Assembly (NCBI GenBank): GCA_016926185.1
Contig: JAFGPD010000038.1
Span: 1 to 39,465 of the forward strand
DNA: 39,465 bases
Origin: Candidatus Woesebacteria bacterium
GTDB taxonomy: Bacteria; Patescibacteriota; Microgenomatia; UBA8517
Direction: 5' to 3'
Position numbers and translations under genes: made by a program
Shown: piece by piece, positions 33,655-34,568 of the stretch
How the letters are laid out: every line of letters starts with the position of its first letter
How positions within the stretch are numbered: position 1 is the stretch's first letter
The notes under the pieces: model-generated
What the model was told of the DNA's origin: nothing
What the model saw: only the letters and a program-made list of their open reading frames with translations
The model's database searches: none

Positions 33655-33776
33655 TCTTAGATAATTATAACAGAAGCATTTGAGGCTACGCAGCAGGGTC
33701 GGAGGGAATCCTCTTTCGTCAAGACTTCGGAAGGACACAGTCGAACCTTTGGGGATTCTCATTCCTCCTTACAAAC

Positions 33777-33808
33777 AAAAATCCCGGGTATAAATACACG
33801 GGATTTTT
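33777..33808 (-). terminator. Intrinsic terminator downstream of tRNA-Trp
   Basis: AAAAATCCCG...CGGGATTTTT hairpin with T-tract. Confidence 0.8.
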
Positions 33809-33813
33809 ATCTG

Positions 33814-33884
33814 CAGGGTCGGAGGGAATCGAACCCCCAATAGCGGTTTTGGAGACCGCTGTTATACCATTTAACTACGACCCT
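33814..33884 (-). tRNA. tRNA-Trp(CCA)
   Basis: Cloverleaf AGGGTCG TA GTTAAATGGTATAAC AGCGGT-CTCCAAA-ACCGCT ... GGGGGTTCGATTCCCTC CGACCCT; anticodon CCA. Confidence 0.95.
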
Positions 33885-33891
33885 ACATCTC

Positions 33892-34140
33892 TTATTTTAG
33901 TCGAATTCGCTTGAGCAATCCAGTTTTAGAAGAACCCCTTTGTTTGAGTTTTCTTTCGCGTTCGAAAGCCAGTTGTTTATTGGGATATGCTTCGTAGTAG
34001 TAAAGAATGGGGTTTGTTAATCTTTTTGACCAGAGACTTTTTCCGTTTTTATGTTCTTTAAGTCTTCTTTTAAGGTTTTTAGTGTATCCAATATAATGTT
34101 TGGTTTTATCTTCGTTAGCCAGGATATAAACATAATACAT
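33892..34140 (-). CDS. GIY-YIG domain nuclease (UPF0213-like)
   Basis: MYYVYILANEDKTKHYIGYTKNLKRRLKEHKNGKSLWSKRLTNPILYYYEAYPNKQLAFERERKLKQ; start at ATG 34140. Confidence 0.9.
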   Translation of the reverse strand: MYYVYILANEDKTKHYIGYTKNLKRRLKEHKNGKSLWSKRLTNPILYYYEAYPNKQLAFERERKLKQRGSSKTGLLKRIRLK

Positions 34141-34148
34141 AAGAAATT

Positions 34149-34218
34149 CCGGTTTTGGATCGAGCCTTTCGCGAAAGGCTCGATGGAGACCGCCATGATA
34201 CCATTTCATCACGGACCT
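34149..34218 (-). pseudogene. tRNA-Trp 5'-half remnant with a 26-bp palindrome inserted in the anticodon loop
   Basis: + strand CCGGTTTTGG-[ATCGAGCCTTTCG CGAAAGGCTCGAT]-GGAGACCGCcatgATACCATTTcatcaCGgACCT versus intact GCGGTTTTGGAGACCGCtgttATACCATTTaactaCGACCCT. Confidence 0.75.
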
Positions 34219-34340
34219 ATGAATACAATTATAACATTGGGCATTATGTATCACCAGAATGGAGAAACACTCTTTTGCTTTAACCTGTTGATATAGTTTG
34301 ATGTATTGAAATAAAATCAATATTATTTTATATTTCAGTT

Positions 34341-34568
34341 ATGCTTACAAAAACAGATTTAAGTCAAATTACAAAAATTGTAAAATCTGAAAGCCAGTCA
34401 CTGGAGAATAAATTAAACAAGAAATTCGATAAAATGGATAAAAGGTTTGATAAATTAGAAAGAAAATTGGATTATGCAATCAATTTTCTAGATAGAGATT
34501 ATCTTAAGCTTCTTGATAGGGTAGAGGCAATTGAAGAGCACCTTCATCTTAAACCGGCATCGATCTAA
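34341..34568 (+). CDS. Hypothetical coiled-coil small protein
   Basis: 75 aa, KKFDKMDKRFDKLERKLD heptads. Confidence 0.6.
   Translation: MLTKTDLSQITKIVKSESQSLENKLNKKFDKMDKRFDKLERKLDYAINFLDRDYLKLLDRVEAIEEHLHLKPASI

Follow-up and report, generated by a model that had tools for sequence, protein, structure and literature searches.

A GIY-YIG nuclease gene in a 39,465-nt stretch of Patescibacteria DNA (assembly GCA_016926185.1, contig JAFGPD010000038.1), referred to here at its full length as the window, was found together with a complete tRNA-Trp between the two parts of a dead tRNA-Trp gene. Comparison with related loci indicates that this locus is probably one copy of a widespread mobile element, consisting of a GIY-YIG gene, hairpin DNA, and a complete tRNA, residing inside an older, dead tRNA gene. 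Such elements would form a widespread and apparently undescribed family of small mobile units. The nested order of the parts, its recurrence at many tRNA isotypes, the shared strand of nuclease and tRNA, the hairpins in the loops of the dead copies, and the occurrence of related nucleases beside different tRNAs were read directly off the sequence, and from them we infer that the element is mobile.

On the minus strand, the order of the parts was the dead tRNA-Trp 5′ half with a palindrome, the GIY-YIG gene, the intact tRNA-Trp, and a 3′ remnant (Table 1), with the outer tRNA present as two parts around the nuclease gene and the complete tRNA. The 5′ half of the intact tRNA-Trp was matched at 78% over 36 nt (positions 34184 to 34219), and a further match to the intact tRNA of 87% over 15 nt was found at 34145 to 34159. 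The remnant ended at 34149, 8 nt ahead of the GIY-YIG ATG (34140), and a gap of 7 nt separated the GIY-YIG stop from the intact tRNA. The 3′ remnant was composed of GGTTC (33747 to 33743), a T-loop insert of 32 nt (33742 to 33711), and the exact last 18 nt of the tRNA (33710 to 33693); the T-loop insert of this remnant did not form a significant hairpin (z, +0.9). In a search of the source genome, which is 94% complete, the intact tRNA-Trp was the sole tRNA-Trp detected, the next best match being tRNA-Cys. The first-pass annotation had described a tRNA-Trp 5′-half remnant carrying a perfect palindrome in its anticodon loop, followed by the GIY-YIG gene and the complete tRNA. The remnant was indeed present, the location of the nuclease gene between it and the intact tRNA was confirmed with Pfam and ARAGORN, and the order was as proposed; the layout was incomplete in that the 3′ remnant at 33693 to 33747 had been overlooked.

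Table 1. Features of the tRNA-Trp locus, with positions numbered along the window
Feature	Position	Strand	Evidence
Possible −10 box (TATAAT) in the promoter of the outer tRNA, lying about 9 nt upstream of its remnant	34228..34233	−	Sequence reading
Outer tRNA-Trp remnant, 5′ half to anticodon loop	34185..34219	−	Direct repeat of intact tRNA
Perfect 26-bp palindrome ATCGAGCCTTTCGCGAAAGGCTCGAT, within the anticodon loop of the remnant	34159..34184		
Remnant continuation CCAAAACCGG, rest of the anticodon loop and most of the anticodon-stem 3′ strand	34149..34158	−	
GIY-YIG nuclease gene, 82 aa, UPF0213/SLX1-like	33892..34140	−	Pfam PF01541, E 3e-16
Intact inner tRNA-Trp(CCA)	33813..33884	−	ARAGORN; Rfam, 68.4 bits
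Inverted repeat past the intact tRNA-Trp, probably its terminator	33767..33818		
Outer tRNA-Trp 3′ remnant	33693..33747	−	Direct repeat and split alignment

No convincing −35 box for the outer tRNA promoter was found at the locus. When the leader was searched for known RNA families, the Rfam cut-off was reached by tRNA only. Separately, positions 33691 to 33783 of the minus strand showed a weak likeness (21 bits, with a cut-off of 45) to the RtT RNA of the Escherichia coli tyrT operon, an RNA that also bears a repeat of a tRNA 3′ end. On the plus strand, positions 34341 to 34568 encode an ORF of 75 aa that diverges from the element; it is probably a coiled coil, as judged by eye, and had no Pfam match.

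The split alignment of the Trp remnant scored 34.2, exceeding all of 200 shuffles, for which the median score was 14 and the maximum 29. Among the 13 hairpins of the 39-kb window, the palindrome had the longest stem and the highest G+C, and Markov-shuffled windows contained 0 to 1 stems of 12 or more. Folding gave a z value of −5.2 for the palindrome insert and −3.1 for the remnant region. A single copy of the 26-bp palindrome was present in the source genome, and it was therefore rejected as a genome-wide repeat there. The GG/GGA found on both sides of it, which had been likened to a small target duplication, is only 2 to 3 nt long and not significant by itself; a target-site duplication was not supported. 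Because the Trp remnant has diverged, the evidence from this locus taken alone is modest; its strength comes from recurrence across loci.

Recurrence was assessed in loci drawn from 50 genomes of the family as well as from genomes spread over the phylum. As these loci were picked by best score and are mutually related, formal p-values overstate the case, and effect size is the relevant measure. The source genome itself contained eight stand-alone GIY-YIG genes besides UvrC, six of which had a tRNA or tmRNA at a distance of no more than about 210 bp, in every case on the same strand. Across Patescibacteria, 117/217 GIY-YIG ORFs had a tRNA or tmRNA no farther than 260 bp away, against a rough estimate of about 4% under random placement, and 115 of these 117 were on the same strand as their neighbor; about 45% of the ORFs had no detected tRNA nearby. 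In these 117 cases, the nuclease gene is outside introns and beside a tRNA gene, as is a free-standing homing endonuclease gene located next to its target. Two layouts were observed, at many isotypes and in many genera: either the GIY-YIG gene preceded the intact tRNA, with a 5′ remnant upstream, or the intact tRNA preceded the GIY-YIG gene, with a 3′ remnant downstream.

The frequency of partial tRNA copies on the far side of the nuclease gene, which the first-pass annotation had suggested looking for in other Patescibacteria, was compared with that at control tRNAs. A matching 5′ remnant was found beyond the GIY-YIG gene for 37 of the 46 tRNAs with such a gene directly upstream, compared with 1 of 30 control tRNAs located away from any GIY-YIG gene. 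A strongly folding insert (z below −2) split the remnant in 24 of those 37 cases and in none of the controls. Neither an absence of recurrence nor matches at chance level, which together had been put forward as grounds for discarding the proposal, was observed. The suggested link to the canonical anticodon-loop intron position was not supported, as inserts were located mainly in the D arm, then in the anticodon loop, and then in the T loop. An intron at the canonical position was rejected: inserts were seen in the D and T arms too, and the tRNA existed in intact form downstream. Nor did the locus resemble a group I or archaeal-type tRNA intron, since the remnant was without its own 3′ half in place and no Rfam intron match was obtained.

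Two further arrangements were seen in the same survey. Members of the same nuclease family lay 96 to 200 bp downstream of tmRNA, on the same strand, in several genera (L006, L183, L189, L191, L238, L259, and L283). Stacked copies, in which two or three GIY-YIG genes alternated with tRNAs, were present at L107, L128, L155, and L168, and at L155 a second hairpin-bearing remnant, of tRNA-Tyr, lay between nuclease and tRNA.

Individual remnants differed in length and in the number and position of their hairpins. A tRNA-Lys locus (L276) retained 62 nt of tRNA and had two T-loop hairpins, while two anticodon-loop hairpins each were found at L261 (Glu), L273 (Ser), and L295 (Leu). A common 20-bp palindrome was located in the D arm at L143 (Ile), L129 (Ile), and L149 (His). 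At L142 (Glu), the simplest case, the 38 nt of the 5′ half were the same as in the inner tRNA; a few copies, L142 and L168, had no hairpin. Inspection by eye revealed a 3′ remnant beyond the inner tRNA at L131 (Cys), L141 (Val), L180 (Gly), and L190 (Glu), and at the last three of these the sequence of the inner tRNA differed from that of the outer one. At L268 and L035, the same hairpin-bearing tRNA fragment was directly repeated on both sides of the GIY-YIG gene and tRNA. Outside Patescibacteria, an Opitutia locus (L026) had an intact tRNA-His followed by the GIY-YIG gene and a remnant with hairpins in two places.

The hairpins were mostly unlike one another in sequence and were concentrated in tRNA remnants beside the nuclease. 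Remnants that in other respects barely differed from the inner tRNA already carried them; hence, the hairpins arrived early, which argues against slow passive decay. Left and right hairpins matched at only 5 of 72 tRNA loci, and a role as matching element ends was rejected for these loci. A role as a needed block to recombination between the tRNA copies was also rejected, since uninterrupted near-identical stretches of 38 to 57 nt persist (L142, L255, L276, and L280). The outer-loop hairpins may be element ends, destroyed cut sites, or passive insertions.

Other hairpins were noted in these genomes. Directly after intact tRNAs, there were hairpins whose pairing includes the encoded terminal CC or CCA, as in TCACCGAGCTCAGCTCGGTGA (L152, L156, L166, and L124), and a hairpin of this type also occurred at a tRNA-Lys that is not directly beside a GIY-YIG gene (L002). 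The palindrome CCTGCCTGCCGGCAGGCAGG was found inside a PNPase-like reading frame (L208, at about 1501, as an LPAGRQ-like insert) and in tRNA-like remnants, and also at L202 and L205. It numbered about 28 copies in 50 genomes, in genes and intergenic DNA as well, and these inserts read as Rickettsia-type palindromic inserts in Patescibacteria.

The GIY-YIG motif of the nuclease was conserved, with Tyr5, Tyr16, Gly18, Arg26, and Glu62 invariant or nearly so and His30 also conserved. In a profile search of the PDB, the best matches were UPF0213 (4e-17) and SLX1 (9e-8). A fold model was obtained with a mean pLDDT of 84, and its Foldseek scores were modest. Sequence profiles and the predicted fold place the nuclease with UPF0213, then SLX1, and then I-TevI and UvrC. 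At about 80 aa, it comprises just the catalytic domain, without a recognizable DNA-binding part. By analogy with UPF0213 and with SLX1, whose nuclease activity on branched DNA is structure specific, and given this bare domain, action on hairpins or cruciforms is plausible. A search of phage records gave no match to the window protein at an E value of 1e-5, and a phage origin of the nuclease was rejected on that ground.

A tree of 122 proteins was built from few columns for many rows and contained many open forks, and only its well-supported groups were used. It included clades that were constant in isotype across genera (Cys, Arg, Gly, and Asn) and clades that switched. The nucleases at L152, L156, and L166, which lie beside tRNA-Glu, tRNA-Arg, and tRNA-Lys in three genomes, were joined with 100% support and short branches. 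Likewise, the proteins of L008 (Glu, in the source genome) and L116 (Gln, in another genus) were joined with 99% support, and, as judged by eye, a hairpin insert that looks homologous occupied the same D-arm position at both loci. Related nucleases also occurred beside Ile and His tRNAs. Taken with the range of isotypes and genera and with the sole tRNA-Trp of the source genome, these groupings of related nucleases beside different tRNAs support the idea, raised in the first-pass annotation, that the locus is a selfish element that lodges in a tRNA gene and preserves tRNA function.

Relatives of the nuclease located away from tRNA genes, in Bradyrhizobium, Flavonifractor, Zixiibacteriota, and others, had inverted REP-like hairpins on both flanks. 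Such flanks were found for 42 of 43 relatives in Bradyrhizobium and 21 of 38 elsewhere (15/27 in other genomes and 6/11 for further copies in seven genomes), compared with 1 of 179 control ORFs. Examples include L017 to L019, L030, L039, L050, and others, as well as genome G191. The Bradyrhizobium repeat, TGTCGTCCCTGCGAACGCAGGGACCCATA, has a CGTC tag and a CCA tail, as in CGTC REPs, and in one genome about 49 copies were present at ≤1 mismatch, with many REPIN-like inverted pairs about 96 bp apart. In Patescibacteria, inverted REP flanks were rare (5/211), and they were absent at the window locus. Hence, what joins the tRNA form to the REP form is the protein family and the possession of hairpins, not shared ends. 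The REP-flanked relatives in other phyla lend support to a partnership of nuclease and hairpin. CGTC-type REPs were stated in 2013 to have no dedicated transposase (Di Nocera et al., PMC3733652). A literature search covering open publications returned no paper linking GIY-YIG genes to REPs or tRNA remnants.

A mechanism can be outlined from these observations. The element would enter a tRNA gene in the direction of transcription and would capture the promoter of the outer tRNA to drive both the nuclease and the replacement tRNA. By bringing or regenerating a working tRNA, it would allow the host to survive. In the window, the lone tRNA-Trp would rely on read-through across the element, and the element would therefore be hard to lose. 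As for the entry itself, the likeliest course, though at slightly less than even odds, is that the putative nuclease, as kin of UPF0213 and SLX1, opens hairpins or cruciforms that form by extrusion both at tRNA genes and on its own flanks, and that the break is repaired by recombination with another copy of the element through the shared tRNA arms, copying in hairpin, nuclease, and tRNA. Several observations count against a mobile element. Synteny with Maf, which was present in just 3 of the 50 family genomes, yielded no empty site or polymorphic allele; in addition, left and right hairpins seldom match, inverted REP flanks are rare in Patescibacteria, a few copies have no hairpin, and many of the ORFs have no detected tRNA nearby.

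The main rival is sequence-specific homing, in which a free-standing, SegB-like endonuclease would recognize tRNA genes by their sequence and cut them, and the element would spread through repair from a copy that carries it, the hairpins just destroying the cut site in the outer remnants. SegB is itself a GIY-YIG enzyme whose cleavage sites are inside tRNA genes, and in phages its gene is found together with tRNA genes (PMC13096335); the ends and interruptions of the remnants lie in the D, anticodon, and T arms, the pattern that cut sites would give; and the clades that stay constant in isotype across genera are as expected from site-specific homing. This account is considered somewhat unlikely. 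In carriers, the outer tRNA was disrupted and the inner tRNA was often identical to it and intact (as at L268 and L276), so that the inner copy would be cut too. A bare catalytic domain lacking any recognizable DNA-binding part is also difficult to reconcile with recognition by sequence, and the REP-flanked relatives are left unexplained. Passive decay, in which tRNAs duplicate near the nuclease for other reasons and palindromes resembling Rickettsia palindromic elements enter the unselected dead copies, appears improbable. The presence of CCTGCCTGCCGGCAGGCAGG within genes and intergenic DNA does indicate that palindromes move in such genomes. At only some 28 copies, however, it is scarce, whereas hairpins lay in 24 of 37 remnants, within some 30 to 60 nt, even where there were no or few substitutions. 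Neither the same-strand rule nor the jumps between isotypes would be explained.

Integration at tRNA genes usually leaves its trace as partial copies of a tRNA next to an intact one, and the direct repeats on both sides at L268 and L035 fit integrase-type or recombination-only integration with the nuclease as a passenger. That the GIY-YIG gene is the sole gene in the unit and a constant partner across isotypes and phyla makes such integration very doubtful, as does the finding that both 5′ and 3′ parts can persist with hairpins inside them. No integrase was found, the GIY-YIG gene being the only ORF identified between the remnants. Chance similarity or an assembly artifact could be entertained for the Trp remnant alone, which is only 78% identical and comes from a 57-contig assembly. 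The scores above all shuffles and the excess over control tRNAs, which extends to the single-contig genomes G040 (L143) and G008 (L155), leave this a negligible prospect, and it was refuted at the level of the family by the recurrence and the controls. A mobile element carrying its own replacement tRNA thus remains the preferred reading of the locus.

If that reading is correct, a tiny element has entered essential tRNA genes of Patescibacteria time and again, each time supplying a substitute for what it disrupts, which would amount to genetic addiction in bacteria with some of the smallest genomes. It would thereby account for many broken tRNA fragments and for many stand-alone GIY-YIG genes annotated without a function. 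Extending the argument to the REP-flanked relatives, we tentatively suggest that small stand-alone GIY-YIG nucleases constitute a new class of mobile element built of a nuclease and DNA hairpins. One form would be flanked by inverted REPs and supply the missing mobilizing enzyme for those of the CGTC type, and the other would be nested in tRNA genes, with a replacement tRNA and a hairpin-marked dead copy. The long-standing question of what moves CGTC-type REPs could then be put to a direct test with an enzyme about 80 residues long. The unit in the window is best regarded as a variant of the free-standing nuclease element, and there is a real chance that it represents the tRNA-lodged branch of this nuclease-hairpin class.

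Among known systems, SegB of phages T4 and T6 is similar in being a free-standing GIY-YIG gene among tRNA genes, not in an intron, and in cutting tRNA genes (PMC13096335). Unlike the window nuclease, it is phage encoded, and no description was found for it of a nested dead tRNA with hairpins or of a unit replacing one tRNA per nuclease. UPF0213 (1zg2 and 1ywl) and SLX1 are the closest solved structures and share the same bare GIY-YIG domain; SLX1 differs in being a cellular enzyme of branched DNA with SLX4 as a partner, and no role at tRNA genes or in mobility was found in the description of the family. Integrative elements inserted at tRNA genes also leave part of a tRNA behind and preserve a functional one. 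Their integration depends on an integrase, and it is typically the 3′ end that they restore, whereas in the unit described here, which spans a few hundred base pairs and has no integrase, both the 5′ and the 3′ parts can remain. REPtrons and REPINs with RAYT (PMC3733652) are likewise small mobile units with one nuclease gene beside palindromic hairpins, and the window nuclease has relatives located between inverted REPs, REPIN-like inverted pairs also being present in the genome. RAYT enzymes belong to the HUH tyrosine type and are associated with GTAG REPs (PMC3733652), in contrast to the GIY-YIG enzyme here and the CGTC-type REPs of Bradyrhizobium, and the hairpins of Patescibacteria are in tRNA remnants and do not serve as matching ends. 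Finally, Rickettsia palindromic elements, which are CGTC tagged (PMC3733652), are palindromes that enter genes, and a comparable palindrome occurs in Patescibacteria genes; the hairpins of the tRNA loci differ from them in being mostly dissimilar in sequence and concentrated in the remnants adjoining the nuclease.
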